Of a DNA stretch of 64,000 nucleotides, positions 7,823 through 44,312 are shown in pieces (positions within the stretch are counted from its first letter, which is position 1; the number at the start of each line of letters is the position of its first letter). The position numbers and the translations under genes were made by a program. Below the pieces are notes generated by a model, which saw only the letters and a program-made list of their open reading frames with translations, did not search any database and was not told the DNA's origin. The DNA is from Cyclobacterium marinum DSM 745 (GTDB taxonomy: Bacteria; Bacteroidota; Bacteroidia; Cytophagales; Cyclobacteriaceae), in NCBI RefSeq assembly GCF_000222485.1, contig NC_015914.1, positions 4,260,001 to 4,324,000 on the forward strand, read 5' to 3'.

Positions 7823-7835
7823 GGGTATATAAAAA

Positions 7836-10079: not shown

Positions 10080-10090
10080 GCAGTAAGTTT

Positions 10091-10711: not shown

Positions 10712-10799
10712 AAGAAAAAAAACGACACCAAAATAACTAAATATTCTGACGACTGGAACCCTTCGAAAGGCTCAGGATCCACTTCGGTCCTTTAAGAAT

Positions 10800-11165: not shown

Positions 11166-11207
11166 GGCTAAATATAAAAGTGTATAATTGATAGACTCAA
11201 TTCTAAA

Positions 11208-11540: not shown

Positions 11541-11579
11541 ATTAATATTTTCATCAAATAACATTATATATCAATTAGT

Positions 11580-11790: not shown

Positions 11791-11849
11791 TAAATATACC
11801 AATCTAGAATGGTTGCGGTTGATTAAGAAAACTGTCGTTCATTAAAATT

Positions 11850-12881: not shown

Positions 12882-12984
12882 CCAAGCCTTTTAACGGTAC
12901 GAATCCATGACAACCTTCGACCCTTCGACAGACTCAGAAACCACCGGCTCAGGATCCGGTTTTCGGTATTGGATCCAGCTCATA

Positions 12985-13300
12985 GTATCGGGAATTTGGG
13001 TTACTATGTGGGAAGGTTTTCCCTCTTTTGCTTTTTTTAGATGATTAAAGCCACTTTTCCGATGGTTTAAGGTTGATTTTTGGACTGTTTATACCATTTG
13101 GACTATGCTATTTGATCCTTACTTTTTTGTTTCCATACTTTTATACAAGCCAATCAGATCTAACTGGATCGACAGACTATTGGCTATTCCAATAAAAAAT
13201 GTGGACACTCCCTAGATTCTTTGACCGAAATACTTAATTTGATAAATAATAGACCTAAGTGGTTGAAAGCATAGGTTATGTATACGCAACGCATTAGCAA
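12985..13300. repeat. Degenerate dispersed intergenic repeat, copy 3; no gene in 12882-13376
   Basis: Ordered blocks shared with 10800-11165 include TTTTTTAGATGATTAA, TATACCATTTGGA, CCAATCAGATCTAACTGG, then TTTGACCGAAATACTTAATT and CCTAAGTGGTTGA. At 12915-12960 are CTTCGACAGACTCAG and GGCTCAGGATCC, pieces of a short repeat also seen near 10755. No coding potential is seen. Confidence 0.5.
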
Positions 13301-13376
13301 CCCATATAAATGATTGGTAAAAAAAGATAAATAAATATTCTTATGCATTTTAAATGTTTTTGGTAAATGAACAACA

Positions 13377-14516
13377 ATGACCGAACTGAAAATTTGTCTG
13401 TTAGCTATATTGGCCATTTTTTGTACTTCTTCGGTGAAGTCGCAAAATGAATCCTCGAATGAGACCTCCGGAAATGAAATACTTTTCAAAATTTTTCAGT
13501 TTCCTAAAGATCAGATGCCACGTATCGATGGGAAATCCGATGACTGGGAAATAGTACCAAGTTCATATGAATATGGCAATGAAATGTTGAAAGATACAGA
13601 GGATGGATTGGGAAATGCTATTGATCATACCAATGATTTGGATGTAAGCGTCAAAGTAGGTTGGGTAGAGGGTTTGAACAGGTTATACTTTTTGTATGAA
13701 GCTACTGATGATTTTTGGGATTTTGGGAGGTTTAGTAACAAGGGTTACCTGAATGATATTTTCGAAATAGTGGTTGATGGCGACCTTTCCGGTGGTCCTT
13801 TTATTTATAACCCGGTTTATACTAAAGAAGACCTGAATTGGGATAGCCAAACGGAAGCCTATTTAGAAAATCATTTTACATTCAGTGGTGTCCACGCTCA
13901 GAATTACCATATCTATACCCCGCCTGTTAATAACGCATGGGTTTTGATTTGGGGAAATCAACATTGGATAGGTGATTTTCCTCAATCCAATTATGCTTAT
14001 GATTACAACTTTGAACCTGGGGAAGAAGGGAAACTCGTTTTGGAGTTTTGGGTTACTCCTTATGATTATGCCCCTTTTGAAGGTCCTCAAAAGGCCATTG
14101 AATCGGAACTCATACAAGGGGAGAGCATTGGACTCTCCTGGTCAATATTGGATTTTGATGGTGGGGAAAGAGAGGGACATTTTAACTTATCCCATGATAC
14201 GCGCATGGTAAAAGATGCAAGCTACCTTCGCAAGTTTAAATTGATGCCCATAGAGAGTGAATTAAAGGATTTGCTCAAGGCAGACTGGTCCTTTGAAGTA
14301 ATAGATATGGAAAACAAGCGTGTGTCCTTCAGAGATGAATCACAAGGTGAGATTTTAAAATGGGAATGGGATTTTGGGGATGGTAATTACTCGAATCAAC
14401 AAAATCCCATCTATGAATTTAAAGAAAAAGGAATTCACAAAGTAGTGACATTAACCGTAGAAGGTCCGGCTGGTAAATCTAAGCACACGAAGTACTGGGA
14501 AGTAATGATTAGGTAA
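13377..14516 (+). CDS. Secreted DOMON/CBM9-like protein with C-terminal PKD domain
   Basis: This 379-residue protein has a signal peptide (about residues 1-22, cleavage near SSVKSQ). Residues about 50-280 resemble a CBM9/DOMON-like sugar- or haem-binding beta sandwich: RIDGKSDDWEIVP at the start, then LYFLYEATDDFWDF and NDIFEIVVDGD. The C-terminal 85 residues form a PKD domain (WEWDFGDGNYSNQQNP, HKVVTLTVEG). There is no catalytic motif, so binding to polysaccharide or the cell surface is the likely role. It lies 41 bp before the rhamnosidase gene on the same strand, probably in one operon with it. Confidence 0.82.
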   Translation: MTELKICLLAILAIFCTSSVKSQNESSNETSGNEILFKIFQFPKDQMPRIDGKSDDWEIVPSSYEYGNEMLKDTEDGLGNAIDHTNDLDVSVKVGWVEGLNRLYFLYEATDDFWDFGRFSNKGYLNDIFEIVVDGDLSGGPFIYNPVYTKEDLNWDSQTEAYLENHFTFSGVHAQNYHIYTPPVNNAWVLIWGNQHWIGDFPQSNYAYDYNFEPGEEGKLVLEFWVTPYDYAPFEGPQKAIESELIQGESIGLSWSILDFDGGEREGHFNLSHDTRMVKDASYLRKFKLMPIESELKDLLKADWSFEVIDMENKRVSFRDESQGEILKWEWDFGDGNYSNQQNPIYEFKEKGIHKVVTLTVEGPAGKSKHTKYWEVMIR

Positions 14517-30618: not shown

Positions 30619-31781
30619 TCAATACCTTACCCGATCCTTTTTATTAAAAAGTAAACCTTCATCCTGAAGCAATTGATAAACAGTGACTTTTTCCTGAATA
30701 TCATTGTTGATAAAGGAGCTAATCAATTTACTATGCAACATTGAACCACCTAATTTCCCAAAGGAATGCCCATCCCGAATAAGCAATAAGGTGGAATTTA
30801 AATAAAACTCTGCCAACACATCATAACAAAATCTGGAAAGCAATTTGTCATGTACTGCACCTACAATCAATACCTTACCACTAAAATCTAATCCCCGGTC
30901 ATAATTTACCCCATATACAGAGAAAGGTATGCGTTCAAACTGCTTCCATATTTCATGACTTTCTAGCATCATCCACTTCGCTATTTTAGATTCTAGTAAA
31001 TTGGAAGCTGCATTATAGGTCAATCCATAACTGTGCTCAAAAAGCCTAATCTTCTGAGCGATATCGGCTTTATCTGCTTCTACTAAAGATGGTAACAGAA
31101 ACCGCCATTTTAAATAAAAATAAAAGGCCAGATCAATGTATTCAGTCCCCGTTTGTTCCTTACAAAGGTTCTCAGAATTGTTGTACCACAAAAAATCAAG
31201 GTAGGAAGCATTTTCAAGTGGTATTGCTTCCAGGCACTGTGAGGGGTTGATAAGATTCAGGTTTTTTGAAGGTCAAAGAGTAGGGGGTTGAAGGAAATCA
31301 AGGATTTGACGTTTTCAGGGAAAAGGCCAAGGTAATAATGCAGGTAGGCAGCGGCACCTGAAAAGCCCAGTAAATGTACCCTGTGGTTTCCGGTCAAGGC
31401 ATTACGGATCAACTCTATGTCCCTTGCTTGTTGGTCCATATTTAGCAATTGATAAGCTTTTGCCCAATCAATTTCCCCTGAAGAATTGATAATTTGCAAA
31501 ATGGCATCAGCCTCATTCCGACCTTTGATATGAACGATATTAAATTCATCCAACAGCGGCTGCATGTCTATGCTTTCCTGAAAATACTTGTCCAAAGGAT
31601 CCTCAATTAGCAGAATGGTTTCCTTTTGCTTATCGTAGGGATGCATTAGGGTATAGCTAATTTCTATTTTCCTAGCATTCTTTATATGATGATCCAGCGG
31701 TACCAGTAAAAAATGAGTTGTATCAGAGGGAGGAAAGTGAAAACCTGTGATTGCACTTAGAAACAGTAGAAAAGCTATCAA
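30619..31781 (-). pseudogene. Alpha/beta-hydrolase-like protein, split by a homopolymer frameshift
   Basis: The gene starts at 31781, overlapping the end of the propeller gene upstream by 4 bp (ATGA-type coupling). Frame one ends at 31257 after FNPLLFDLQKT. Adding one A to the run of six A near 31262 joins it smoothly to NLINPSQCLEAIPLENAS and on to the stop at 30619. The fused protein of about 387 residues has a signal-like N-terminus, a nucleophile elbow GFSGA, an Asp candidate (VGAVHDKL) and a His candidate (RDGHSFG), the alpha/beta-hydrolase layout. Either it is a real frameshift, a slippage-controlled switch, or a sequencing error in the A run. Confidence 0.65.
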
Positions 31782-32875
31782 AATTTGTCATTCCTTAATT
31801 TTACAACATGGAACTCTAGGGTATTTTCCTTCAATGCAGGATTTGCAGGATGTGCTAGGTTTAAAAATAAACCCTTTTTAGTTGCAAACCAATTATTGAT
31901 CTGGTAAGTATAATCAGGTAATGAATAGTGCTGAAGTTTTTTCAATTTGGAATCAAAAACGGTAAGTGAGGTTTTCTTTTTTAGAAATAAAATTTCTTTC
32001 CCTTTAATTGGCGCTTCCCAATTGAATCTATAAATAAGTTTCCGCCAAGGGTCAGGTATTGGGGAAAGATAATGCGTATTGTTTATGGCATGCGAATCAA
32101 TATTATCTAAGTTGATTAAAGGCAATATATGCTTAACCTCTTTTCCTTCCTTCAATTTTCCTTTGGTATTTAAACTATAAATATTGGATTGGTACTGATA
32201 ATTAAAAATCATATTTCCCTCGAAAAAATTATTGAATCCTAAATAGGTAACAAAACCAACATTTCCATAATTTTCCTTAAAAAAATCGGTATGATAAATT
32301 GGTAAATAGTTAGTTTCTAATGTTTCAAGATTAAGTAAGCCTATAAGAGGAAGATTTCCTTTTGATTTTTGATCTGTATTGTGGTAAACTATAAAGAAAG
32401 CTACACTTTTTGACACAGGGTTATACCGAAGCTTAAAATAGAAATTTATAGATGGTTCTCCTCCACCATCAAAATTAAACAACTCATAAAGTGAATGAAC
32501 TTTACTTATTTTTCCATTCAATGAAGAGATGTATAGTTTGCCTCTCGAGTACAAAAAAACAGAATCTTCATTGTGGAAATCTAGCCCGTCAACTTTGTCT
32601 ATACCATCAGGTCCTTCACGTTCAAGTGGTATTTGGTTTAAAGTTGATTGTTTATCCAAGCTAAACAAATCAAATGAATGCCTTGTTGCGTTATAGGCAA
32701 GGAGTTTGGATTCCTTATTCTCATAATAAGAATCCCAAACCTGATAAGTATTTAAGAAATTTTCATCAATTGGGATTTGAATCTTTTCGATATCAAGTGC
32801 TAGATGCTCTTTATTAGTGGGTATTGAACAAGAAAAAACGAGAGAAATTAAAACAAATAGCATAAAGTTATTCAT
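31778..32875 (-). CDS. DUF4221-like beta-propeller lipoprotein
   Basis: This 365-residue protein has a lipoprotein signal (lipobox VFSC). The mature part is built of short beta blades (FDLFSLDKQSTLNQIP, DSVFLYSRGKLYISSL, SVAFFIVYHNTD) and fits the six-bladed DUF4221 group. It differs from the other three propellers of the cluster. No NVEA-type peptide gene precedes it; only a decayed fragment of a glycosyltransferase gene is seen upstream at 33090-33150. It is coupled to the hydrolase-like gene downstream. Proteins like this usually sit on the outer membrane or in the periplasm; the role is unknown. Confidence 0.75.
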   Translation of the reverse strand: MNNFMLFVLISLVFSCSIPTNKEHLALDIEKIQIPIDENFLNTYQVWDSYYENKESKLLAYNATRHSFDLFSLDKQSTLNQIPLEREGPDGIDKVDGLDFHNEDSVFLYSRGKLYISSLNGKISKVHSLYELFNFDGGGEPSINFYFKLRYNPVSKSVAFFIVYHNTDQKSKGNLPLIGLLNLETLETNYLPIYHTDFFKENYGNVGFVTYLGFNNFFEGNMIFNYQYQSNIYSLNTKGKLKEGKEVKHILPLINLDNIDSHAINNTHYLSPIPDPWRKLIYRFNWEAPIKGKEILFLKKKTSLTVFDSKLKKLQHYSLPDYTYQINNWFATKKGLFLNLAHPANPALKENTLEFHVVKLRNDKF

Positions 32876-33014
32876 ATTAACTAAACTAAAAACAAATGTT
32901 GATTTTAACCAAAATATTTAGTTTTTTTAACAACTTATAGAATTGATAAACTGTTGACGCTCAATTTTTCCGAGTACATGGGTGTCATTTTTCGTGCATG
33001 GAAATTTTTTGCTA

Positions 33015-33062
33015 AGTGATGTGGTGATCTAGTGAGTTGGTGATGTGGTGATCTGGTAATTG
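33015..33062. repeat. Degenerate GTGATSTRGTG short tandem repeat
   Basis: Units such as GTGATGTGGTGATCT follow one another with small changes, up to TCTGGTAATTG at the end. The same motif occurs in other gaps of this cluster (around 42565, 44248 and 44868), always in non-coding DNA. Confidence 0.55.
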
Positions 33063-33089
33063 TGTAAATGATTACTTCCAGGTGATCAC

Positions 33090-33150
33090 TTCCAGGCACA
33101 AGGGTATAGCCAAGAGGGAAATAATTCAGGGAGCTTAAGATTAAAACCCA
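33090..33150 (-). pseudogene. Decayed glycosyltransferase fragment
   Basis: GGGTATAGCCAAGAGGGAAA and ATAATTCAGGGAGCTTAAGA match the glycosyltransferase gene around 40740-40790 (GGGTAAAGCCAAGTGGGAAA, ATAATTCAAGGAGCTTAAGA). In that gene the stretch encodes the segment SLNYFPLGFTLVPG. It lies in the 437-bp gap between two propeller genes. It shows that a second copy of the tailoring gene once stood here, consistent with duplication and loss of peptide-propeller-enzyme modules. Confidence 0.6.
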
Positions 33151-33312
33151 TAGTTTTTGTAATTAATTTTTCAATCCGGTTTCTGAAGGGGTAAGCTTAA
33201 TTCTGGGAGGTATATTAATAATTGCCTTCATTCAAAATCAGGTCATATGGCAAACTTAAGTAATTGCAATTTCCTAGGCCATAAACCTAGATTTTACCAC
33301 AAATCTATAAAA

Positions 33313-34401
33313 TCAAAAATTATCAGGTAGGCTAAACACAGCCAGTCCAGGATCCCGATCTGTGGTAATACCATAAAGCTTACCGGACTTTTCATCTACA
33401 GCAATGGATTGTAAAGACCTGTCTAATATCAACTCAAATTTCGAATTTCCTTCATAATCAAATACATAAACTGTTGTTGAGTTGATTTCACTATTTAGTA
33501 ATTCTTCCCTATTCCTTCCGCAGAAAAGCCCATAAATGTATTTATTTCCCAAACAAGCGCTTGAATAGGCATAGGGTTCTCCCTCATTTATTACCAATCC
33601 AGCACCGCTCCCTTTTCCAACAATAGAAAATCCCGGGACATGGTTTAATGGTCCATTTATCGCTAAAATTTCTCCTGTTTTTCTGTTTAAAATCTCGATC
33701 CTGTCTCTTCTTATCCCCACATGAACAAATATATCACTATTGGGTTTCCTCAACAGTTTTCCTTGGTGTAAATCCCCAAGATTAAAATTGGAAATTCCCT
33801 TGAATTCCTTTTTGGGCTCTATCTCCTTCCACGTGCCAAATTCATTTATTCTATCTCCCTCCAATTTAAATTCAATGTATCGGGCAGGATCGTTTGCCAT
33901 CCTGGTCATCACACTGGAATCAGTAGCCCAAACTAAATTAATAGCCGTAATAAAATTTTCTTTTTGTTTTATTTGTTGAGTTGGTTGATGCGAATCATCT
34001 CTTAGTTCAAATTCAGAATAAGTCTTTCCACCTAAGCTGTAAACCCAAAAAGTACCCTCATCATTGCCAAAATCAAACATAAAAGAATCCGTAATTTCTC
34101 CGGGGCCGAAACCAGATTCACCTTTCGAATTTAAGTATTGAAGTGTTTTTTTATCCAGTATGTGCATGGGGGGTTGATTGGTCAACTCCTGTATTACAAT
34201 AAAATCATTTTTAACTAGAAGATTATTTGGTTTTAATAATTCAGGATAATAATATTTTTGGCTAACTAAATCAATGCTTTTTGGTATGGTCTCTTTTGTG
34301 AATACCTTGTTAGAAGGATCTGACTTCTTGCAGGCACAAAGTAATAGACCTGAAATTAAGATCAATAAATTATTTTTATTTAATAATAATAGTATTTTCA
34401 T
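33313..34401 (-). CDS. TolB-like six-bladed beta-propeller lipoprotein
   Basis: This 362-residue protein has a lipoprotein signal (lipobox LLCAC). It is built of repeated blades (MHILDKKTLQYLNSKGESGF, GPGEI, then FDYEGNSKFELILDRSLQSI and GKLYGITTDRDPGLAVF). It is a clear paralogue of the protein at 40985-42097: both start the mature part with FT(K/E)(E/K)TIP and end with GITTD(R/E)DPG. It follows the peptide gene 34465-34686 with a strong hairpin between them. A propeller gene after an NVEA-type peptide gene is a recurrent pairing here and, from what I know, in other Bacteroidota. A role in peptide export or recognition is only a guess. Confidence 0.82.
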   Translation of the reverse strand: MKILLLLNKNNLLILISGLLLCACKKSDPSNKVFTKETIPKSIDLVSQKYYYPELLKPNNLLVKNDFIVIQELTNQPPMHILDKKTLQYLNSKGESGFGPGEITDSFMFDFGNDEGTFWVYSLGGKTYSEFELRDDSHQPTQQIKQKENFITAINLVWATDSSVMTRMANDPARYIEFKLEGDRINEFGTWKEIEPKKEFKGISNFNLGDLHQGKLLRKPNSDIFVHVGIRRDRIEILNRKTGEILAINGPLNHVPGFSIVGKGSGAGLVINEGEPYAYSSACLGNKYIYGLFCGRNREELLNSEINSTTVYVFDYEGNSKFELILDRSLQSIAVDEKSGKLYGITTDRDPGLAVFSLPDNF

Positions 34402-34422
34402 ATATCAATTAGTCTGCGATTT

Positions 34423-34458
34423 AAGCTCTGAAGCCATTTGATTAAGGCTTCAGAGCTT
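34423..34458 (-). terminator. Perfect 13-bp hairpin between peptide and propeller genes
   Basis: AAGCTCTGAAGCC and GGCTTCAGAGCTT pair perfectly around a 10-nt loop. On the coding (minus) strand no T run follows, so it may protect the 3' end of the peptide mRNA or partly block read-through. On the plus strand a T-rich run follows (CTTTTTATTTT), so it could also stop opposing transcription. Confidence 0.6.
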
Positions 34459-34464
34459 TTTATT

Positions 34465-34686
34465 TTAAACTGTGCATGAATCTGTATTACATTTTTTTTC
34501 ATCACCTATCCAGGGTCTTCCCTTTTCATCGTAACATATGGTATTAGGTAAACCAGCTTGACAACACACCCAACTTGTACAACAACCCCCTTCGGCCTCC
34601 ACATTAAAGGAATTAAATAATCCCACACTCATGGCCACTACTCCCATGGCAACAGTAGCTTTCTGCAAAGTTATTTTCTTTTTCAT
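34465..34686 (-). CDS. NVEA-type Cys-rich peptide precursor 1
   Basis: This 73-residue product starts with a 31-residue leader almost identical to those at 42224 and 43820: MKKKITLQKATVAM, a hydrophobic run and FNSFNVEA. Then comes a variable Cys-rich tail with GGCCTSWVCCQAG and three more Cys (seven in all). The motif matches the NVEALA-type small proteins of Bacteroidota, whose function is unknown. The leader resembles a secretion signal, and the tail could be disulfide-bonded or modified. A conserved 5' region with LytTR-type repeats precedes it. Confidence 0.85.
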   Translation of the reverse strand: MKKKITLQKATVAMGVVAMSVGLFNSFNVEAEGGCCTSWVCCQAGLPNTICYDEKGRPWIGDEKKCNTDSCTV

Positions 34687-34768
34687 GCTATTTTTTGGTT
34701 TATGGTTAAAAGATGTTTTAATTAAACCAATTAAATTTATTTTTCATAAAGAGATAATTATATTTATT

Positions 34769-34796
34769 GTGAACTGGCTGCTTTTTCCCGTGAACT
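34769..34796 (-). promoter_or_regulatory. LytTR-type direct repeat upstream of peptide gene 1
   Basis: On the minus strand AGTTCAC occurs twice (plus-strand GTGAACT at 34769 and 34790), 21 bp apart start to start. LytTR regulators bind two direct repeats spaced by two helical turns with a GTT core. The nearer repeat is 83 bp before the start codon, exactly as at the two other peptide genes. A LytTR protein is encoded at 35763-36122. Confidence 0.68.
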
Positions 34797-34885
34797 AGCG
34801 GTTTTATCGGACGTGGTGAGTTGGAGAAGGTTTTATGTAGTGATGTGGTAATTGAAGATTAGTGAAAGAAACTGGGTTTTAGGTA

Positions 34886-35785
34886 TTATTTGTAATTTAG
34901 CTTGATCCTCATTTCCTTTGTTAACTCCTTAAACATTTCTTTTTCCCTTATGGGCCACTGTTCAAAGGGTGGGAGGTACTCTACCTTGGTTGCATTCGAC
35001 TTTTGATTCATGATATGGTTTATTTTGTTCCAATCTGCATCCCTTTTTTCGGTTAATTTCAAAAATTCTATAACTTGTAAAATTGTTTTTTCCCTGATAG
35101 ACTGGTTTTTTGAAAAGAAATCTTCGTACTTAATTTGTAGGGAATTTTCACTGTTTTGCAAGGATTCCTGAATAATGCTATTGACTTTATTCCAGTACCA
35201 GGCTATTTTGTGAACCCGGTTGAAATCGGGCCATTCTTTTTCCCATCCATCGCCTGGAAAGTCCTTGGGGCAGATCCTTTTCCTGTGATCGTTTTCCCCA
35301 TAAAACAACATTTCCCCACCACTATCTTTTGGAGATTTAGCATAAAATGACCTGACGGAGTCTATTGGATTTCTGACTACATACAAAAACTTGATAGATG
35401 AAAATGTAGCCATTAGTTCCGGAATAAGGTATGCAGCGTGCGGATTTGATTCTATATAGGTGGTCTCTGGAGTGGAAAGCACTTGCTTTAGTAATGGTTT
35501 TCTGAATTCACATATATTTTGGCAGCTGACGTCAAAAATCAAATCTGTCCTAATTTTTTGCATACCCATGTCAAAAAAATCAGGTTGGGGCTCATGAACT
35601 GCATATACCTGACTGAAACAGGTATTAAAAAAATCCTGGAAAAAACGGGTGCCTGTTCTACCTGCACTGAGGATAAAAATTGTTTCTACCTCAATGCTTT
35701 CTTTGGGTTTTGACTTCCTGCTATTATTTCCAGTTTTATCTTTAAATAAACAAGAGATAGGATTAATTTGTATTTTCCAAGCCAT
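34886..35785 (-). CDS. Sulfotransferase-family protein
   Basis: This 299-residue cytoplasmic protein has the PAPS-binding loop (FILSAGRTGTRFFQDFF, a P-loop-like 5'-phosphosulfate motif) and the 3'-phosphate-binding segment (KFLYVVRNPIDSVRSFYAKS). It would transfer sulfate to a hydroxyl of a sugar, peptide or other acceptor. It overlaps the LytTR gene by 23 bp, so the two are translationally coupled. Placed in a peptide-modification-like operon with three glycosyltransferases, sulfation of a glycan or peptide is plausible but not shown. The frame is intact. Confidence 0.82.
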   Translation of the reverse strand: MAWKIQINPISCLFKDKTGNNSRKSKPKESIEVETIFILSAGRTGTRFFQDFFNTCFSQVYAVHEPQPDFFDMGMQKIRTDLIFDVSCQNICEFRKPLLKQVLSTPETTYIESNPHAAYLIPELMATFSSIKFLYVVRNPIDSVRSFYAKSPKDSGGEMLFYGENDHRKRICPKDFPGDGWEKEWPDFNRVHKIAWYWNKVNSIIQESLQNSENSLQIKYEDFFSKNQSIREKTILQVIEFLKLTEKRDADWNKINHIMNQKSNATKVEYLPPFEQWPIREKEMFKELTKEMRIKLNYK

Positions 35786-36122
35786 TATTTAGTTGGTTTA
35801 GTAGAATCATTTTCTTTTTTATTTCAGTCCATTTTGATTTGGCCACCTTAAGGCGAAAATCGTTTTGCATAATTATTTCCCTTTTTTTTACTTGAAGAGA
35901 ATAGATTAAATTTACATTTACTATGCAGTTTCGGTTTATTTTGAAAAAGTTTTCCGGCAACTTATCTTCCATACTTTTAAGAGAAGAACAGAAAGAATGG
36001 CTGTTTTTATTCAAACAAAAGACCGTGAGCAGGTAATCATTTACTAAAAAATGCGTTATTTTTTTCAACTCTAGTTTTAGTATGGTTTGGCTGCATTTGA
36101 GAATTAAATAGGAGGTTTCCAT
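35763..36122 (-). CDS. Stand-alone LytTR DNA-binding regulator
   Basis: This 119-residue protein consists almost wholly of a LytTR domain: KKITHFLVNDYLLTVFC, SLKSMEDKLPENFFKINRNC, IVNVNLIYSL and the closing FRLKVAKSKWTEIKKK. There is no receiver domain, so activity may be set by expression level or another ligand. Direct repeats of the LytTR type with 21-bp spacing sit upstream of all three peptide genes, the obvious targets. The gene lies in the tailoring operon, between the broken glycosyltransferase and the sulfotransferase. Confidence 0.88.
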   Translation of the reverse strand: METSYLILKCSQTILKLELKKITHFLVNDYLLTVFCLNKNSHSFCSSLKSMEDKLPENFFKINRNCIVNVNLIYSLQVKKREIIMQNDFRLKVAKSKWTEIKKKMILLNQLNNGLENTN

Positions 36123-36338
36123 AAAAAATATTTAGTAGTATAACTATATTGTTAAAGTAAAAAAAAATAGAATTTAACAAAATAATAGGTGTTAATTTGA
36201 CATTTGTATTGGAATTACATTTTTAATCTCAGAATTATGTAATAGACGATCTATTTTCTATTACCGATTAAAATTTATTTGTATATATTTTTTGTTTAAT
36301 CAGTGCTTTTAAACAAAAATATTTGAGTCCTAAATGAC

Positions 36339-37580
36339 TTATAGCAGATCAGTATATATTTTTTCCAGTTTTTTACCTAAATGGAAGTTGTCAAACTTGT
36401 GTTCTATAAATTTTCTACCACTATTTCCCATATCCTTTCTAACCCTTGGATGTTCAATAAGGTATTTCATTTTTATTTGAAGGGCATTGATATCTTTTTC
36501 GGGAACTAGGTATCCAGTGATGCCATCCATTACTCCTTCAGGTATCCCATTGTGTAAGGTAGCAATTACCGGTAATTGCATGGCTTGGGCTTCCTGAAGT
36601 ACCAGACCCTGTCCTTCAGAATTGCCATCACTCGCCGTAATGCTAGGAAGTACAAAAATGTCGGAATTTCTGTAAAAATTGATAATGTCAGCCTTTTTTT
36701 TCTCTCCATGAAAGAAAACCTTTTCCTCCAATCCAAGAAAGGTTACCAGTTCCATTAAAGGTTTCATCAATTCACCATCGCCCACGATGTCATAAAAGGT
36801 ATTTGGGTGAAGTTCTACAAGCTGGTGAAAAGCTGAGATGGATTAGTACAATCCTTTTTTCTCTACTAATCGCGCAACCCTTAACAGTCGAATGCAATTT
36901 TTGTCTGTTTTCTGCTTATAAGGTATAAATTCTCCAGGATTCACACCAATGGGCAAAACCACAATTTTATTCTTGTCAAATCCAGCTGAAATTGCATTTT
37001 CCCTGATAAAATTAGAAATGACAATAAATATATCGCTATTGGAAAACAGGTTTTGATAATAGTTTTCACCCATTGCCCGATGAGTGATATCATAGCCATA
37101 AAAGGTGGTGAGCATTTTACCATCTAAAAGTCCTAGTGATCTCACAAAAACTGCTCTCAAGCCGGTAGGGCCAAAATGACAATGAATAATATCATATTTA
37201 TTTTTTGATATAAATGGATAGAAGAGAGAAATCAAATATAACCGACGTATCATATCCTGATTGCGGTAAAAATCCTGAGAATCAAGTAACTTAACCAATT
37301 TTCGAACAGCCTACTTAATATTTACCAACACAAAGAATTTTAGCCAAGCCCATATTTTGTTTTGGGGTACTTTAGGTGGATAAAAAGTACGCTGGAGTAA
37401 TCCTAATCGGTGAATCTCATCATGTACTTTAGTTTCTTCAGACTTGCCTGCCGGAAAAATATCCACCTTATGGCCTGCCTCAATCAAATAACTAATTTGG
37501 TTGAGTATAAATGTTTCGGATAATTTGGGGAAACGCTCAACTAAGAACGCAATTTTTAATTTTTTTGAAGTTTCATTCAT
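36339..37580 (-). pseudogene. GT4-family glycosyltransferase with two in-frame stop codons
   Basis: One continuous frame from 37580 to 36339 (411 sense codons) encodes a GT-B glycosyltransferase. The N-terminal part has AFLVERFPKLSETFILNQI, the middle HCHFGPTGLRA and GYDITHR, and the C-terminal part GDGELMKPLMEL, VLPSITASDGNSEGQG and LVLQEAQAMQLPV (the GT4 EX7E-like region). It is interrupted by TAG (37311-37313) and TAA (36843-36845) with no frameshift. Downstream residues still fit the family, as in SISAFHQLVELHPNTFYDIV after the second stop. So the decay is recent, or the stops are read through or are sequence errors. It lies between the FkbM and LytTR genes. Confidence 0.85.
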
Positions 37581-37583
37581 TTT

Positions 37584-38363
37584 CTAAAGCTTGTTTTTAA
37601 GTGACTCGATGGAATGAAAGTCAAGAAGGTATTTTATGTCTTTTTTAGATAATTCGTTATATCCGACTTTTGAAAAGCACAAAAAGTCCCCCTCAAACTG
37701 ATAAACCTGATAGTCATTGTAAAGTAATAAAAGTGCTGCTTTTAATTCTTCCCGGTTCAAGTGTTTCATTTCAAATAATATAAGAGAGGGTTTAAATCTG
37801 GTCAAATCCAATTGTCTAAGTATTTTCCAGTCGTGGCCTTCACAATCTATCCGCAATAGATCGATTTGTTGAATTCCATGCTTTTGAAGCAAAGTTTTCA
37901 GGGTAATTCCCTTTATGCTTGTGGAAACAATAAAGGGGGTTAAAATACCGTTCAGATGTTTACTGATATGGTTTTTGTCAAAGGAGCCCAATTGGTCATA
38001 CCAGTCCGGAAGATTGCCTAGGATGTATTTGGCCTTTTGGTCTACCCAATAAAATTCCTGCCTTGTGCCATTATTGATGGCGGTGTTTTCGAATAAAAAC
38101 CTAGTTGAATCGGGGTAATGGGTCTTTAGTTTTTCAAATAGGTAGGGAACGGGCTCTACGAAAAGCATTTTCCATTTTTTATTTTTTAAAATAGACTTAT
38201 GAAGTGGGTCTTTGGTTTTGCCGTCATTGGCTCCAATTTGTACTACCGTCCAGTTTTTCTTATTCCCAGTAATATGAATCCAGTACTCAACCTGGGATTT
38301 AATCTTCAATTTAGGATTCAATTTTTTAGTTAAATTTGTAAAATAATTTAAGATTGAGACCAT
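37584..38363 (-). CDS. FkbM-family methyltransferase
   Basis: This 259-residue protein has the SAM-binding Rossmann start (WTVVQIGANDGKTKDPLHKS), the acidic segment LFVEPVPYLFEKLK and the FkbM core (LLRIDCEGHDWKILRQLDL, PSLILFEMKHL). Members O-methylate sugars or polyketides. It overlaps the upstream glycosyltransferase gene by 16 bp, so both belong to one operon. Methylation of a glycan attached by the neighbouring transferases is a reasonable inference. Confidence 0.86.
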   Translation of the reverse strand: MVSILNYFTNLTKKLNPKLKIKSQVEYWIHITGNKKNWTVVQIGANDGKTKDPLHKSILKNKKWKMLFVEPVPYLFEKLKTHYPDSTRFLFENTAINNGTRQEFYWVDQKAKYILGNLPDWYDQLGSFDKNHISKHLNGILTPFIVSTSIKGITLKTLLQKHGIQQIDLLRIDCEGHDWKILRQLDLTRFKPSLILFEMKHLNREELKAALLLLYNDYQVYQFEGDFLCFSKVGYNELSKKDIKYLLDFHSIESLKNKL

Positions 38364-39130
38364 TCTTGGATTTTGTTGTTTAACTCCTTTTTCCCCAGTG
38401 ATTTAATATAAAGAATGTCGTTCCATTTTCCCTGGTCTTCACGATTACTATGGAAACTACTATTGATTCCACGAGGATGAGAAAGATGGAACAAGGGTCC
38501 GTCTATGCGGTTATGATTGTAACCTAGCCCTTTCCATCGGTGTATTCGCTCTCCATCTTCCCTTCCCCACCCGTAAAAGTTCGGGTTTTCAATCCCCGTT
38601 GCCTTGTAATCCTGAAGGTTTGCAAGAAAAGCACCACCTATGGGGTCAGGTCCATACATTGACATCATTTTAGCTTTGTGTGAAGTAAATACTGTAAGAT
38701 CCCGATTTTTTATAAAAATTTCCCTAAGGATCATACCCGTATCTAAAAATTCTTTGGCATAGGGAAAAACGAAACTTGATTCGCCATCTTTCATGCATTT
38801 TAGGGCTGCTATGATTTGTTTTGGTGGAATGATAACATCACAGTCCCAAATTGCTACAAATGGTGTCTTAGAAAACCCTACCAATGTATTGATGTATTTT
38901 GTCCGGTGGAAGATATCGTCCCTATCTTCTTCAAACCAATAATTTATTTTATTCCCTGCTAAAGCAGAAATAATCCCGGTTTTATAAGCGGAAGCTTCAA
39001 GGACTAAAATAGGAGAGCGTAAGTGATGGTGTAGAAAGTCTATCACCACCATTAGGTTTTCCAACCGAATGACTGAATCCAACCGGACAGGAATAAGAAA
39101 GCTGATATCTTGCAGAGACGCTTTATTCAT
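38348..39130 (-). CDS. Glycosyltransferase with galactosyltransferase-like (GT7-C-type) features
   Basis: This 260-residue GT-A-fold enzyme starts ISFLIPVRLDSVIRLENL. It has a DxD motif (FVAIWDCDVIIPP) and the GT7-C-type block PIGGAFLANLQDYK, followed by NFYGWGREDGERIHRW, which binds metal and acceptor. It overlaps the LanC-like gene by 8 bp and the FkbM gene by 16 bp, so it is in the same operon. The acceptor is unknown. A glycan on the Cys-rich peptides or on the cell surface is possible. Confidence 0.82.
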   Translation of the reverse strand: MNKASLQDISFLIPVRLDSVIRLENLMVVIDFLHHHLRSPILVLEASAYKTGIISALAGNKINYWFEEDRDDIFHRTKYINTLVGFSKTPFVAIWDCDVIIPPKQIIAALKCMKDGESSFVFPYAKEFLDTGMILREIFIKNRDLTVFTSHKAKMMSMYGPDPIGGAFLANLQDYKATGIENPNFYGWGREDGERIHRWKGLGYNHNRIDGPLFHLSHPRGINSSFHSNREDQGKWNDILYIKSLGKKELNNKIQEWSQS

Positions 39131-40187
39131 GTTGAGGATCTTTAATTTGTTTCAAAAAAAGGAGAGCGTAATGAATTCCTGTAATTCCGTAAATAAACCC
39201 CATTTCGTTTTCTGGATTTTTTTCGGTGGCTCTCCAATACTCGGATTTCTCCAGATGTTGCATCGCTAGTTGTACGTTTTTTTCATCATTAAACAAGCCC
39301 TTCCAATCATCTATTTCCAACCCTACTTGCTTGTCTAATAAAATCAAACCGGAAAGACCGTTTTCTACATACAGGCTTTTATTTGCAAGCCTAAAAGAAG
39401 TGATTGAAGCACTATTTAATTTTTCTTGCAGAAGTCGGGTGTGTGCTGACCAATCCTCATGTGCCACCTTGCTCATTCCGTAAAGCAAACTGAGACAGTT
39501 TCCTAAATTTTGGGGAATCAAGGAAAGCAGCAGAGGAGAAATGTTTCGAATCATTTGTCGGGTTTTGTTGGGCATTATGTTCAGGCGGTTGATTTCACCC
39601 AACACATACAGGTAATTGGGTAGGTCCCAGAATAGGTTAAATTCTTTTGGCTCAGTAAAATTGCCCCTGTTTTCTTCGGCCATTAGGTGGATGCGGTTGA
39701 TCAGTAAAACTGCAAGAGAAGTGAATATTTCACTGTTTACCTTCTCTGGCGCATTTTTAGGCTGGACTGAAACACGGTCGAGGATATAGATCAGGTAGCC
39801 TAATATTCCACGCTTTAAGCCAAATTCAAGCTCGTTCGTTTTTTCAGAAATAACCTTGAAAAGGATTGTGTCTATTTCCATTAGCAATTCATCGGCATTA
39901 CCCTCCAAATAACCTCTTTTGATTAATTGGTTAATTCCCCAGGCAATTCCGGCCAGTCCATTGTCAAATGAGGTCGGCATCGGGTTTTGGTGAATAAAAT
40001 TGTACCCCTCTTGTAGTAAATGTTCCGCTGCATGCTGGTATTTTAGTTCTTCGCACTGTTGAAAGGCTTCGAAGAAGTAAAGGCAAAGGCCAAACTTGCC
40101 TTTAAAGAGTCCAGGATTTTCGAGGCTGGTGTAATGTCCCAACAATAGCTCATCTCGTGTATGGAAAAGTTGTGTAACCTTATTCAT
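39123..40187 (-). CDS. LanC-like alpha/alpha-toroid protein, zinc ligands not seen
   Basis: This 354-residue protein has the repeating Gly-rich turns of the LanC family: FKGKFGLCLYFFEAF, SFDNGLAGIAWGINQLI, GLKRGILGYLIY, YVENGLSGLILL and MGFIYGITGIHYALLFL. True LanC cyclases bind zinc with a Cys and a Cys-His pair in the last third. I do not see the CHG motif, so classical thioether formation is doubtful. LanC-like proteins without ligands may act in binding or in another reaction. Its ATG overlaps the stop of the extended glycosyltransferase frame upstream (ATGAATAA). Confidence 0.75.
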   Translation of the reverse strand: MNKVTQLFHTRDELLLGHYTSLENPGLFKGKFGLCLYFFEAFQQCEELKYQHAAEHLLQEGYNFIHQNPMPTSFDNGLAGIAWGINQLIKRGYLEGNADELLMEIDTILFKVISEKTNELEFGLKRGILGYLIYILDRVSVQPKNAPEKVNSEIFTSLAVLLINRIHLMAEENRGNFTEPKEFNLFWDLPNYLYVLGEINRLNIMPNKTRQMIRNISPLLLSLIPQNLGNCLSLLYGMSKVAHEDWSAHTRLLQEKLNSASITSFRLANKSLYVENGLSGLILLDKQVGLEIDDWKGLFNDEKNVQLAMQHLEKSEYWRATEKNPENEMGFIYGITGIHYALLFLKQIKDPQHE

Positions 40188-40977
40188 CTGTTATTTTTAC
40201 AGGGTGGTAAAGTTTATTTTTCAAATTCCCTGTTTTTTCGAAAACGGGTCTCCATCGCATGGTGCCGTCGGAAAGTATACCTCTTTTGTTAGGTGTATTT
40301 TCCGAATAAAATTTGTTTTCAAGGCCTTCGGGTACAAATTCCCCTTACCCACCAAAGTCTTGGATGGAAAATCCACTTTCATAAAGCAGGGTAGGAATGA
40401 GTACTTCATGATGCCCACACCACTTGCTTAAGAGTGCTTTGTGAAGTAATTCTAAAGCTTGACGTGAAATTCGGTAGATGGGGTTAAAGGACCGGATCCG
40501 TTGCTCTTGTGGGATAACGGTGTAGGGATGGGCCAGGGTAGGCCACCAAGGCCATTCCGGTTCTTCTTTATAGCGGCGGATATGACTACTGATAAAATCA
40601 GTGTCAATAGAGGAAAAATCTTCAAAAAAGGATTTCCAATCCCCCGAGAATTCCACGTCGTCTTCAATGCACCAATAGTAATCGTAATGTGGATGAGAAA
40701 GGTAGAATTTTAGCAAGGGGAAATGATTGCTACCCGGTACCAGGGTAAAGCCAAGTGGGAAATAATTCAAGGAGCTTAAGACTTCATCGTCAAAGATGTG
40801 CGTATTCACGTCTTCTAAGTTTGGATTAGAATTATCCCCTAGCAAATGGTACAACACCACTGTATCTCCCATATTTTGGGTAGCTGTAAACAGCTTATGG
40901 TAATTTTGAATTAAAGGGAGTGAGGTTTTATTGGTGAGGATTAAAAAAGATTGTTTTAGCGAAGTATTTTTGCCCAT
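40180..40977 (-). pseudogene. Glycosyltransferase-like protein with one in-frame stop codon
   Basis: From 40977 the frame gives 210 residues ending IQDFGG, then TAA (40345-40347). The same frame continues for 54 sensible residues (GEFVPEGLENKFYSENTPNK, and later WRPVFEKTGNL) to a stop at 40180-40182, where it overlaps the LanC-like ATG. That overlap shows the longer frame is the original one. The N-terminal part has FLILTNKTSLPLIQNY and an acidic metal-site candidate, YYWCIEDDVEFSGDW. A decayed second copy of part of this gene lies at 33090-33150. The shortened product might still fold. Confidence 0.8.
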
Positions 40978-40984
40978 TGAGGTA

Positions 40985-42097
40985 TTATTTTAGGTCAGGT
41001 AAGTCAAAAACAGCAATTCCTGGATCTTCATCTGTGGTGATGCCATATAATTTTTGGGATTCCTCGTCTACCGCCAATCCTCTGATAGAAATATCCAATA
41101 TAAAATTACATTTAATTTTACCTTCCAGGTCAAATGCATAGATATCATTGGCGATTTCATTACTTTCCCTCAATTGTTTTTCGGTTTTATCAGAATATAA
41201 ACCAAAAATATAGTTTTTGGATATAGCAATGTCCAAATAGGCCAAGGGTTCGGCTATACCCACGATTAATTTATTAGATGAGCCACTGGAATTAGCAATT
41301 GTAAATTTGGGAATGTAATTGAAGGGGCCATCTGTAATGAAAATTTTTCCTTTCTCTTTGTTTAAAATTTCAATTCTATCTCTATAAACACCAGCAGATG
41401 CATAAACATTATTTATCTGGTTTCCTTTAAACCATCCCATATGTAAATCCGACATCATATAATTGGTTAGGTCTTCTCTGACTAAATGATCTTCCCATTT
41501 CCCATAATTCGCTAAGCGCCTTCCATCAATCGAAAATTCTACAAATTGATGGGGATCATTTACCATGCGGCACATAACTGTACTATCGGAGGACCAAGCC
41601 ATGGCCATGGCCATATAGAAGTCTCCTTCTTGTTTGATTTGATTTTTTGACAATGATGTGGTATCATCAAGGTCGAATTCTGAAAAATGCTTTGACATTG
41701 CGCTATAAACCCAGAAAGTATTATCATTGGCACCTAAATCAATTCCTGAGACGTCAGAAACTTCACCGGGTCCAAACCCTATTTTACCGAATGGCCGCAA
41801 ATATTTCATTTTTTTTGCATCGAGGACATGAATTGGAGGAAAATCTTCAGGTACCCTTCTGCTTTCGCCAATGATCAACTTATTGTTTTTAATGAAAATT
41901 TTAAGCGGCACTTTTATTTCCTCAAAAAAGTATTTTTTGCCAGCCAGGTTTACTGTTCTAGGTATCGTTTTTTCAGTAAAGCTTTTTACATTATCAGATT
42001 TCAATTTGTCTTCTGAACAATTCGATAAAGACAATAGTATAATGATTAACATTGCCGCATTTAATAAAACCTTATTTGATTTTTTAGTTAATTTCAC
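40985..42097 (-). CDS. TolB-like six-bladed beta-propeller lipoprotein
   Basis: This 370-residue protein has a lipoprotein signal (lipobox LSNC). Its mature part starts with a variable segment then FTEKTIPRTVNLAGKKYFF, followed by blades such as IHVLDAKKMKYLRPFGKIGF and GPGEVSDVSG, and ends KLYGITTDEDPGIAVFDLP. It is the paralogue of 33313-34401. It lies downstream of peptide gene 2, with a long-stem hairpin between, and 7 bp upstream of the glycosyltransferase-like gene. It thus links the peptide gene to the tailoring operon. Confidence 0.82.
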   Translation of the reverse strand: MKLTKKSNKVLLNAAMLIIILLSLSNCSEDKLKSDNVKSFTEKTIPRTVNLAGKKYFFEEIKVPLKIFIKNNKLIIGESRRVPEDFPPIHVLDAKKMKYLRPFGKIGFGPGEVSDVSGIDLGANDNTFWVYSAMSKHFSEFDLDDTTSLSKNQIKQEGDFYMAMAMAWSSDSTVMCRMVNDPHQFVEFSIDGRRLANYGKWEDHLVREDLTNYMMSDLHMGWFKGNQINNVYASAGVYRDRIEILNKEKGKIFITDGPFNYIPKFTIANSSGSSNKLIVGIAEPLAYLDIAISKNYIFGLYSDKTEKQLRESNEIANDIYAFDLEGKIKCNFILDISIRGLAVDEESQKLYGITTDEDPGIAVFDLPDLK

Positions 42098-42127
42098 AAC
42101 AGTATTAAATTTACAATTTGCTAAAAA

Positions 42128-42199
42128 GCTTCACGATAAACCGAAAGATTCTAACTAACCTAAATAAATCTAGATATAAAATAACTCTTATCGTGAAGC
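42128..42199 (-). terminator. Hairpin between peptide gene 2 and its propeller gene
   Basis: On the minus strand the perfect 12-bp arms GCTTCACGATAA and TTATCGTGAAGC, 48 nt apart, are followed by CTTTTT, so this can act as a partial intrinsic terminator. It would let the peptide be made in excess over the propeller and the tailoring enzymes. Confidence 0.62.
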
Positions 42200-42223
42200 C
42201 TTTTATTTACTATTTACCATAGA

Positions 42224-42445
42224 TTATTGATGATTCGTACAGGTATCACCTGGAAAATCTCTATCAACCGGTCTGTCCTCTGACCATACTATTCCAGATT
42301 CATCAGTACAGTATGAGGTGCCTGGGCAACACATATAGCCACAACCTCCATCTGCTTCTACATTAAAAGAATTAAATAATCCAACACTCATGGCCACAAC
42401 CCCAGCGGCCACCGTAGCTTTTTGTAAAGTTATTTTCTTTTTCAT
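42224..42445 (-). CDS. NVEA-type Cys-rich peptide precursor 2
   Basis: This 73-residue product has the shared leader (MKKKITLQKATVAA, hydrophobic run, FNSFNVEADGGC) then a tail with GYMCCPGTSYCTDESG and a final Cys near DTCTNHQ, five Cys in all. The leader and about 130 bp of 5' region are nearly identical to the other two peptide genes, while the tail diverges completely. That is the pattern of a precursor family under diversifying selection on the tail. LytTR-type repeats lie at 42528-42555. Confidence 0.85.
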   Translation of the reverse strand: MKKKITLQKATVAAGVVAMSVGLFNSFNVEADGGCGYMCCPGTSYCTDESGIVWSEDRPVDRDFPGDTCTNHQ

Positions 42446-42527
42446 GCTATTTTTTGGTTTATGGTTAAAAGATGTATTAATTAAACCAATTAAATTTATT
42501 TTTCATAAACGATTAATTATATTTATC

Positions 42528-42555
42528 GTGAACTGGTTGCTTTTTCCCGTGGATG
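42528..42555 (-). promoter_or_regulatory. LytTR-type direct repeat upstream of peptide gene 2
   Basis: The near repeat (plus-strand GTGAACT at 42528) and the far repeat (GTGGATG at 42549, two changes) are 21 bp apart. The spacer GGTTGCTTTTTCCC is almost the same as at 34776. The near repeat is again 83 bp from the start codon. The weaker far repeat may lower regulator binding. Confidence 0.62.
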
Positions 42556-42561
42556 GGCATA

Positions 42562-42640
42562 TTTATTGGATATGGTGATGTAGTGATCTTGTGATGTAGT
42601 GATTGGGTGATAGAGTGACCTTGTAATCTACTGGAGGTGA
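42562..42640. repeat. Degenerate GTGATSTRGTG short tandem repeat
   Basis: GGTGATGTAGTGATCTTG is followed by TGATGTAGTGATTGGGTGA and weaker units. It is the same motif as at 33015, 44248 and 44868. It lies directly upstream of the LytTR-type repeats of peptide gene 2 and after the end of propeller gene 3. Confidence 0.55.
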
Positions 42641-42656
42641 GTTCTTAAGGAATTGG

Positions 42657-43811
42657 TTAATCCTTTATTTGATATATGGCAAAAACAAAAGAAACTGTTT
42701 CTTGTTGTAGTGACTCAAGCAGGGGATGGTCTGAATTTTCCATCTGTTCAATTGTAATAAATTCATCGGGATAATGGACGCTAATGAGTGTATTATTGGA
42801 TAAATATTTAACATTTAAATAAGGTAATAACCCATCTAAATCATTGGTAGCATTGGAGATGGATTTAGATGTTTTTTTTGTTCTATTATAGAGTAGCGTA
42901 CTTCTGTAATTTTTCTCCCTAAAACAAGTGACCAAATATTTTCCGGATAGGTGTAAATTGGGCATGTGGTATACATAGTCTTGCATGTACTCCAAGTTAT
43001 TTAGAATATTTGAGTCATGTTCCTGAAATATATTTAACTTTAACTTTCTAGAATTCTCAAAATCCAAATACATCTTTTCTTTCAATTCCTTACCTTCAAA
43101 TACGTAGATTGTATCGGAAAAATGCTTTGTAAAGAAAGTTTTGTTGTCTAAGTAGACCAAGATATTCCTGTCGGCAAAAAACGGAATTTTTTCTTCCATA
43201 AATTTAGAGGTAAAAAAAGGATGGACTTTCTGGTTTTCATATGAAAATAATATATTATCGCCATGCTTAGGGTCAGCCGACGAAATGTTTGGAGGAACGT
43301 AAAATATCAACTCGTCCTTTTTGGTAGCTAAGAATTTATATCCACCACTTATTGGTCTGTCTAAATCTTCAACGAAATTTCCATTGAAATCGAATGCCAA
43401 TATTTTTTTGGTAGATAAAATAAGTACTTTCGGGTCTTCATGATGTATGACAAAGTCGTTAATTTGAGTGTACTCCCCCGGTCCTTCCCCAAATGCGTTG
43501 ATACTGCTTAGGAAATTACCCTCCTTGTCAAGGATAATTACTTTGGGATTTTGGTAAAAGTCTCCAATGAATATATTATCTTCAGTTATAATTACTTTAT
43601 CGGCCTGGCCAATGGATGATTCAAGTGGTAATTGGACAGTTATATAATTTACTTTATTAAAAACTTCTGAAAATCTTTCGATATTTTCTTCAGGTATGGG
43701 AATTGCCATATTTTGGGAACCCAAATTATTGTTATTGGATGTATTTGAGCAGGAGCAGAGAAATAAAAAACTAAAGATAATTCCGGGTAATGTTTGAGAG
43801 AAAGAATTCAT
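42657..43811 (-). CDS. Six-bladed beta-propeller lipoprotein (PF17170-like)
   Basis: I use the ATG at 43811 (MNSFSQTLPGIIFSF, lipobox LCSC) rather than 43835, because this leaves an 8-bp gap after peptide gene 3 and gives a clean lipoprotein signal. The protein has about 384 residues with blades such as VIITEDNIFIGDFYQNP, VIILDKEGNFLSSINAFGEG, PGEYTQI and KKILAFDFNGNFVED. This is the typical six-bladed propeller group that often neighbours NVEALA-type peptides. It is clearly different from the two TolB-like propellers. It should be membrane-anchored outside the cytoplasm. Confidence 0.83.
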   Translation of the reverse strand: MNSFSQTLPGIIFSFLFLCSCSNTSNNNNLGSQNMAIPIPEENIERFSEVFNKVNYITVQLPLESSIGQADKVIITEDNIFIGDFYQNPKVIILDKEGNFLSSINAFGEGPGEYTQINDFVIHHEDPKVLILSTKKILAFDFNGNFVEDLDRPISGGYKFLATKKDELIFYVPPNISSADPKHGDNILFSYENQKVHPFFTSKFMEEKIPFFADRNILVYLDNKTFFTKHFSDTIYVFEGKELKEKMYLDFENSRKLKLNIFQEHDSNILNNLEYMQDYVYHMPNLHLSGKYLVTCFREKNYRSTLLYNRTKKTSKSISNATNDLDGLLPYLNVKYLSNNTLISVHYPDEFITIEQMENSDHPLLESLQQETVSFVFAIYQIKD

Positions 43812-43819
43812 TGTTTTTC

Positions 43820-44065
43820 TTAAAAGCCTCCACATGCGAGACTACATGGGTTTTGCATCCAAACTTCGCAGGTAAAAATTCCTTCTTCACGGCATTTTTT
43901 TACTACAAAGGTACAATTGGGATAATAATTTTGGCAGTAGTCGTTCTCTTTATAATAGCCACAACCTCCATCTGCTTCCACATTAAAAGAGTTAAATAGT
44001 CCAACACTCATGGCCACAACCCCTGCGGCCACAGTAGCTTTTTGTAAAGTTATTTTCTTTTTCAT
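43820..44065 (-). CDS. NVEA-type Cys-rich peptide precursor 3
   Basis: This 81-residue product has the same leader as the other two (MKKKITLQKATVAA ... FNSFNVEADGGC). The tail has Cys in GGCGYY, DYCQNYYPNC, VVKKCREEG, FTCEVW, NPCSLACGG, eight Cys in all and the longest of the three. It is the first gene of the minus-strand cluster. Its stop is 8 bp before the propeller start, so the pair is surely co-transcribed. LytTR-type repeats lie at 44148-44175. Confidence 0.86.
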   Translation of the reverse strand: MKKKITLQKATVAAGVVAMSVGLFNSFNVEADGGCGYYKENDYCQNYYPNCTFVVKKCREEGIFTCEVWMQNPCSLACGGF

Positions 44066-44147
44066 GCTATTTTTTGGTTTATGGTTAAAAGATGTATTAA
44101 TTAAACCAATTTAATTTATTTTTAATAAAGAGATAGTTGTATTTATT

Positions 44148-44175
44148 GTGAACTGGCTGCTTTTTCCCGTGAAAG
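44148..44175 (-). promoter_or_regulatory. LytTR-type direct repeat upstream of peptide gene 3
   Basis: Plus-strand GTGAACT (44148) and GTGAAAG (44169) are 21 bp apart with the spacer GGCTGCTTTTTCCC, the same as in copy 1. The near repeat is 83 bp from the start codon, as at the other two peptide genes. Conservation continues through the 5' untranslated region. Confidence 0.65.
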
Positions 44176-44247
44176 GGCATATTTATCTTGTGAATAGCAT
44201 GTTTGAAGACTGTAATGAGAAGAAAATCAGGAATTTGTGGTATAGAG

Positions 44248-44312
44248 ATTGAGTGATGGTGTGATGTGGTGGTGGGGTGATAGTGTGATGTAGTGAATCG
44301 GTGGCTGTGGTG
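44248..44312. repeat. Degenerate GTGATSTRGTG short tandem repeat
   Basis: GAGTGATGGTGTGATGTGG, TGGTGGGGTGATAGTG and TGATGTAGTGAATCGG follow one another. It marks the upstream edge of the peptide cluster. Confidence 0.55.

Follow-up and report, generated by a model that had tools for sequence, protein, structure and literature searches.

Which function unites three short genes for cysteine-rich peptides, the propeller genes that follow them and the tailoring-type enzymes encoded in between is the question raised by a locus of Cyclobacterium marinum DSM 745. The locus lies in a 64,000-nucleotide stretch of contig NC_015914.1 (positions 4,260,001 to 4,324,000; the window, with positions counted from its first letter). 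The genes form a genuine and conserved system of peptides and propellers, in which tailoring is optional and the leader Sec-like. In its workings the locus resembles one for modified peptides or bacteriocins, and it falls outside the lanthipeptide, NVEALA and GG-leader RiPP (ribosomally synthesized and posttranslationally modified peptide) classes. The reading favored here, for which the case taken whole is evenly poised, is a LytTR-controlled system of exported cysteine-rich peptides, each made with its own envelope propeller, in which the peptides are tailored and propeller-bound.

Organization of the locus

The peptide, propeller and enzyme genes, in the direction of transcription, are as follows.

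43820..44065, minus strand: peptide C, shared Sec-type leader and 7-Cys core (open reading frame [ORF] list, alignment)
42657..43835, minus strand: propeller C, DUF5128/DUF4934 six-bladed propeller, lipobox by eye (domain match; 16-bp overlap with peptide C)
42224..42445, minus strand: peptide B, same leader as C, 5-Cys core of CC type (ORF list, alignment)
40985..42097, minus strand: propeller B, TolB_like (PF15869), six-bladed, lipobox by eye (domain match)
40180..40977, minus strand: DUF3405-like glycosyltransferase (GT), DUF3405 matched over a short stretch, frame interrupted by one nonsense codon in this strain
39123..40187, minus strand: LanC-like protein, LanC fold lacking conserved Cys or His
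38348..39130, minus strand: GT7C-like galactosyltransferase, scoring just below the Pfam cut-off and matching beta-1,4-galactosyltransferase 7 over a short stretch
37584..38363, minus strand: FkbM-type methyltransferase (domain match)
36339..37580, minus strand: GT4 glycosyltransferase, two nonsense codons in this strain (domain match)
35763..36122, minus strand: stand-alone LytTR DNA-binding protein (domain match, E=2e-13)
34886..35785, minus strand: sulfotransferase, PF00685/PF13469 (domain match; overlaps the LytTR gene)
34465..34686, minus strand: peptide A, same leader as C, 7-Cys core of CC type (ORF list, alignment)
33313..34401, minus strand: propeller A, TolB_like, six-bladed, lipobox by eye (domain match)

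Residues 1 to 31 of peptides A, B and C are identical save at one position in the translation alignment, and the likeness of their DNA begins about 110 to 120 bp upstream of the start codon and ends just past the leader, which bears out the shared leader and 5' region claimed by an earlier sequence-only reading of this DNA. Across the 6.22-Mb genome, strong matches to the 5' cassette are confined to these three genes; the best match after them has an E value of 0.06. The cysteine-rich cores behind it differ, as that reading had stated, but they contain 7 (C), 5 (B) and 7 (A) cysteines rather than the seven, five and eight given there. A propeller gene does follow every peptide, of DUF5128 type after C and of TolB_like type after B and A. 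The LanC-like protein, three GTs, FkbM methyltransferase and sulfotransferase described between the peptides were likewise recovered, with overlapping reading frames at several genes (ORF coordinates), in the order propeller B, DUF3405-like GT, LanC-like, GT7C-like, FkbM, GT4, LytTR and sulfotransferase from peptide B to peptide A. In the Pfam scan the LANC_like, DUF3405, FkbM, GT4, sulfotransferase and LytTR domains were all above cut-off, and GT7C was just under it (22.6 bits versus 23). Peptide C gave a weak ShK match under the cut-off (12.7 of 20.9 bits), and PADLOC returned nothing for five proteins.

Conservation and gene linkage in relatives

A profile built from 17 leader peptides (threshold E≤1e-4) matched 22 of the 390 family genomes searched, in 7 of 84 genera; named relatives with the leader peptide are Cyclobacterium roseum, Lunatimonas, Echinicola and a Cytophagales metagenome-assembled genome (MAG). 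Genes were counted in 27 stretches with leader peptides (4.3 to 20 kb each) from these 22 genomes and in 20 control stretches, hand-chosen at round-number coordinates in 11 of the 22. Propellers were found in 24 of the 27 leader-peptide loci and in 1 of the 20 controls, and LytTR genes in 16 and 1, respectively. The tailoring genes were rarer and nearly absent from controls: LanC-like, 10/27 versus 0/20; sulfotransferase, 8/27 versus 0/20; DUF3405-like GT, 7/27 versus 0/20; GT4, 7/27 versus 1/20; GT7C, 5/27 versus 0/20; and FkbM, 3/27 versus 0/20. The C39 exporter was found in 1/27 versus 5/20, the excess in controls probably representing other ABC transporters. Since only 10 of the 27 loci carry a LanC-like gene, peptide and propeller form the constant unit and tailoring is optional.

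Tailoring genes unrelated to the peptides in other genomes would have refuted the earlier reading, and the comparison did not refute it. The LanC-like gene is missing from most loci, but where it occurs in the 22 genomes it is usually close to a leader peptide, 13 of 16 matches lying within 5 kb (several of the 13 are fragments). Two of the remainder are farther away (G047), and one lies, like its peptide, at contig ends (G095). Lunatimonas salinarum (G018, L057) also has the order DUF3405-like GT, LanC-like, GT7C, FkbM, GT4 and LytTR, lacking the sulfotransferase, next to leader peptides, with the GT4 gene split by a 361-amino-acid ORF. In a Lunatimonas MAG (G095, L059) this block has open reading frames and closes a contig, the peptide being found on a different one; in the Cytophagales MAG (G105, L058) it is partly deleted. 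L. lonarensis and C. roseum have short versions that lack the LanC-like gene, and Echinicola loci have LytTR and sulfotransferase genes in front, followed by peptide, propeller and the LanC-like gene or its fragments.

Core-propeller pairing and leader exchange

BLAST identified 71 propeller-type genes, 46 of them with a small cysteine-rich ORF upstream. Four were dropped as spurious frames (L063_253, L123_3761, L124_11567 and L124_16963, of which at least L124_11567 carries a true leader peptide in another frame and was wrongly lost); two that the leader rule could not split and three of L120 that are near copies of the window were also left out, and the three window pairs were added, giving a final n of 40. 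A Mantel test over all pairs gave 0.30 for core versus propeller, 0.36 for leader versus propeller and -0.02 for cores across leader types. When the comparison was restricted to clearly related cores, with shuffling within loci and with Z cut-offs of 6 and 3 picked after the Mantel result, propeller type tracked core type even across different leaders. In G043, for example, a core like that of peptide C and a DUF5128 propeller occur together behind another leader, and similar cores are found behind both leader types.

Among clearly related cores, it is thus shown, at the level of sequence, that the leader is exchangeable while the propeller type goes with the core. Interchange between the Sec type and the NVEALA type is shown by two swaps, and that with the GG/C39 type is suggested by gene order. 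The recurrence of such pairs with swapped export tags in relatives suggests a little-studied peptide system. Propellers are also found on their own: TolB_like has 90 matches in 21 of the 22 genomes, and many of these lie at a distance from any leader peptide or on another contig, constituting a reservoir of orphan propellers.

Leader and export

The leader had been taken for a recognition leader of the RiPP kind; it reads instead, by eye, as a Sec signal with cleavage behind VEA. Of 14 peptides from Echinicola and G472, 9 have Q directly after EA (10 counting an ambiguous one in L137), which fits the Bacteroidetes Q-rule as given in the available text of PMC5837995. C39 peptidase gave no match in the genome of the window at E≤1e-5, is present in 18 of the 22 genomes and was matched in 8 of 14 controls.

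LytTR regulation

According to the part of PMC6193735 available, LytTR regulators are associated with 9-bp repeats separated by a 12-bp spacer, i.e., a 21-bp period, and bacteriocin genes are among their targets. Sites of this kind were sought with leave-group-out weight matrices upstream of 18 of the 42 listed peptides and of 249 background genes. For 17 of the 18 (the exception is in L066), the tandem repeat TTCACGGG, with a 21-bp period, begins 106 to 129 bp ahead of the start codon; it precedes peptides in three genera. A matrix derived from Cyclobacterium, Lunatimonas and the Cytophagales MAG scored 6 of 8 Echinicola peptides above all 249 background upstreams; of the weaker Echinicola promoters, L125a was equalled by 1 and L066 by 39 of the 249. 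The reverse matrix placed a site before all 10 peptides of the first group, equalled or exceeded by 0 to 2 of 249 background upstreams (2 for peptide A and 1 for peptide B of the window). The four best sites in the window all precede the three peptides, the scan matrix having been trained on these sites too. The predicted repeats of the window are as follows.

44142..44196, minus strand: LytTR-type repeats ahead of peptide C, with three half-sites in 21-bp steps (weight matrix)
42522..42555, minus strand: LytTR-type tandem repeat upstream of peptide B (weight matrix)
34763..34796, minus strand: LytTR-type tandem repeat upstream of peptide A (weight matrix)

The LytTR control proposed earlier for this cluster thereby gains a predicted operator, and a LytTR switch over the peptides is probable. 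The arrangement resembles the LytTR regulatory systems of Streptococcus and bacteriocin loci under LytTR control, in which, as PMC6193735 describes, a LytTR regulator is likewise combined with direct repeats of 21-bp period before small peptide genes. Those systems belong to another phylum, and no membrane inhibitor gene was identified here, where no membrane-protein prediction was made.

LanC-like protein and tailoring enzymes

The LanC-like protein matches LANC_like at E=2e-9, and its fold aligns over the whole chain with nisin cyclase and with the cyclase domain of class III LanKC, LanC proteins ranking first in VIA-align. In Foldseek the top two rows were CuvL at E=0.16 to 0.17, with nothing at E≤0.001. 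The Cys...Cys-His zinc ligands of class I LanC are lacking: 12 aligned sequences contained no Cys or His column conserved at ≥90%, and none was seen in an alignment of 14. In G195 the LanC-like protein and the sulfotransferase are fused in one gene (L068:10453-12204). No credible solved relative was found for the sulfotransferase or for the DUF3405-like GT, the structure model of the latter being of no use at a pLDDT of 32.

Gene integrity in this strain and near relatives

The nonsense codons of the GT4 and DUF3405-like GT genes are absent from the near-identical genome G451, in which both genes are open; the DUF3405-like GT is open also in L. salinarum, L. lonarensis and a Cytophagales MAG. 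An alpha/beta-hydrolase gene (window positions 30619 to 31781) is divided into two ORFs here and forms a single ORF in G451, C. roseum, G067 and G464. The LanC-like, GT7C and FkbM genes are identical in DNA between the window and G451, and the sulfotransferase genes differ by 3 bases. Peptide genes are interrupted elsewhere: peptide C of G451 and peptide B of G464 contain one stop each, and the peptide of C. roseum contains two. G464 belongs to the same genus; it keeps the genes for peptides C and B and for the propellers of both, and lacks most of the tailoring block.

Interpretation of the locus

In the favored reading, the leader would serve as a Sec signal cut after VEA. Before export, the cytosolic GTs, FkbM methyltransferase and sulfotransferase may add a short methylated or sulfated glycan (or a tyrosine sulfate) to the peptide, which the LanC-like protein would hold for these enzymes, forming no lanthionine. 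The propeller could then bind its own peptide at the producer surface, most likely for self-protection against a secreted antagonist and alternatively as a receptor; this is the least certain step. Several observations weigh against the scheme. We infer modification of the peptides from gene linkage, and the profiles behind the gene counts had members of the same loci and of sister loci in their training sets. LanC-like genes are missing from 17 of the 27 leader-peptide loci and sulfotransferase genes from 19, and the peptides and propellers of G464 persist without most of the block. Nonsense codons interrupt two GT genes of this strain, as stops do peptide genes of G451, G464 and C. roseum, and the window peptides have D or E, not Q, after VEA.

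The loci lacking LanC-like or sulfotransferase genes, together with G464, would also fit peptides exported unmodified with only disulfides, beside a GT/FkbM/sulfotransferase block that makes a surface glycan and adjoins them merely through the shared LytTR regulator. Glycosyltransferase, FkbM and sulfotransferase-type enzymes are common in glycan pathways. The LanC fold, by contrast, handles peptides in known bacterial enzymes, and the LanC-like gene is fused to the sulfotransferase in G195. In addition, LanC-like, GT7C, DUF3405-like GT and LytTR genes recur with peptides of another leader type: L068 (positions 3190 to 13834, in G195), L069 and L070 hold GG-leader cysteine-rich peptides, an ABC exporter, HlyD, LanC-like, GT7C and LytTR genes, with the DUF3405-like GT also in L068 and L069 and the C39 domain of the exporter confirmed by Pfam in L068. 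Cysteine-rich peptides are therefore among the few things common to both locus types, alongside LytTR; L068 adds a DUF4221 gene of propeller type. Unmodified export beside a glycan block appears unlikely. Decay of the tailoring arm in this strain, with peptides and propellers alone still working, is a more serious possibility that nonetheless falls clearly short of even. The nonsense codons and the split hydrolase gene, all open in the near-identical genome, speak for it; they may, on the other hand, be assembly errors, and the LanC-like, GT7C, FkbM and sulfotransferase genes show the identity or near identity to G451 noted above.

A signaling circuit, in which the peptide is the signal, the propeller its receptor or carrier and the LytTR protein closes the loop, would account for LytTR genes in 16 of the 27 loci and for the predicted operator. 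It has a parallel in Bacteroidales biosynthetic gene cluster 5 (BGC5), where "putative signaling proteins" follow the precursors and signaling was suggested in the available text of PMC10352776. The LytTR protein here, however, consists of the DNA-binding domain alone, and none of the Pfam matches in the cluster is to a sensor, membrane-protein prediction not having been run. That three different cores each stand under a copy of one promoter would also fit a repertoire of antagonists better than a single signal. Signaling is considered rather improbable. Far less probable still is a lanthipeptide or other thioether RiPP, with the LanC-like protein cyclizing dehydrated Ser/Thr onto Cys. The LANC_like match and fold agree with it, class III cyclase domains function zinc-free (PMC10604976, in the part available), and peptide B scored 10.8 bits against a class I lanthipeptide leader model, far under the cut-off of 22. 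The LanC-like protein shares the lack of zinc ligands with class III but has no dehydratase partner among the Pfam matches of the cluster, and membership in a lanthipeptide cluster was rejected on these two grounds; a genome search for LanB (PF04738) gave 0 matches, as it did in the control genomes. The lack of any conserved Cys or His and the Sec-type leader also argue against cyclization.

Beyond the window, the tailored, propeller-bound peptides of the favored reading may belong to a general Bacteroidota system, a proposal made tentatively. Cognate core-propeller pairs would move between interchangeable leaders, and in a subset the zinc-less LanC fold would have been converted to a docking role, presenting the peptide to GTs and a sulfotransferase and so giving sulfated glycopeptides. 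If true, this would provide a role for propeller families of unknown function, for zinc-less LanC proteins that lack a dehydratase and for short cysteine-rich export peptides. Each core would name its own likely binding partner, so that propellers, LanC proteins and peptides become testable together, and leader swaps behind constant core-propeller pairs would be a natural experiment on what sets specificity.

Comparison with known systems

The closest described clusters are Bacteroidales BGC3 to BGC5, which contain LanC-like proteins and no LanB and whose authors, in the available text of PMC10352776, judged the LanCs probably not part of lanthipeptide clusters. They differ from the window cluster in holding radical SAM enzymes and mostly GG-type precursors, whereas the window has a Sec-like leader, sulfotransferase, FkbM and LytTR; no radical SAM match was found among the scanned cluster proteins, the rest of the genome not having been searched.

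The peptides had been labeled NVEALA type, a label that does not hold: PF14055 gave no match above its curated cut-off and was rejected as their family, and the window leader is, by eye, unrelated apart from the letters NVEA. The likeness lies in short exported cysteine-rich peptides with a propeller-type gene next to them, as in the window. In G427 (L133, L134) all six PF14055 matches above cut-off have such a neighbor (BLAST; one Pfam-tested), and no LanC-like or GT gene of the reference set was recognized in these two loci. Among open-license works, no paper was found on these propellers or on NVEALA peptides. GG-leader RiPPs of TIGR04149 are approached by peptides near LanC-like genes in sister loci L068, L070 and L072 (L068 and L070 also with GT7C and LytTR), the leaders of which fall under the model cut-off; the window peptides and the G451 copy of peptide B gave no match.

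Flanking features and repeats

Two further features lie downstream of propeller A.

33055..33141, minus strand: 29-residue DUF3405-like GT remnant after propeller A (E=3e-6)
31778..32875, minus strand: DUF4221 protein, no leader peptide found upstream

The remnant looks as if peptide, propeller and GT had once been duplicated as a block. The DUF4221 gene of G451 (L120:2798-5239) is broken by a 390-amino-acid ORF, perhaps a transposase. Degenerate 8-bp tandem repeats (GTGATNNN) occur upstream of peptides B (42574 to 42611) and C (44253 to 44303), as well as in the interval that separates propeller A from the DUF4221 gene (33016 to 33057), and are possible recombination sites. Dispersed intergenic repeats at 28.6 to 30.4 kb of the window have matches at several places in sister loci L120 and L121.

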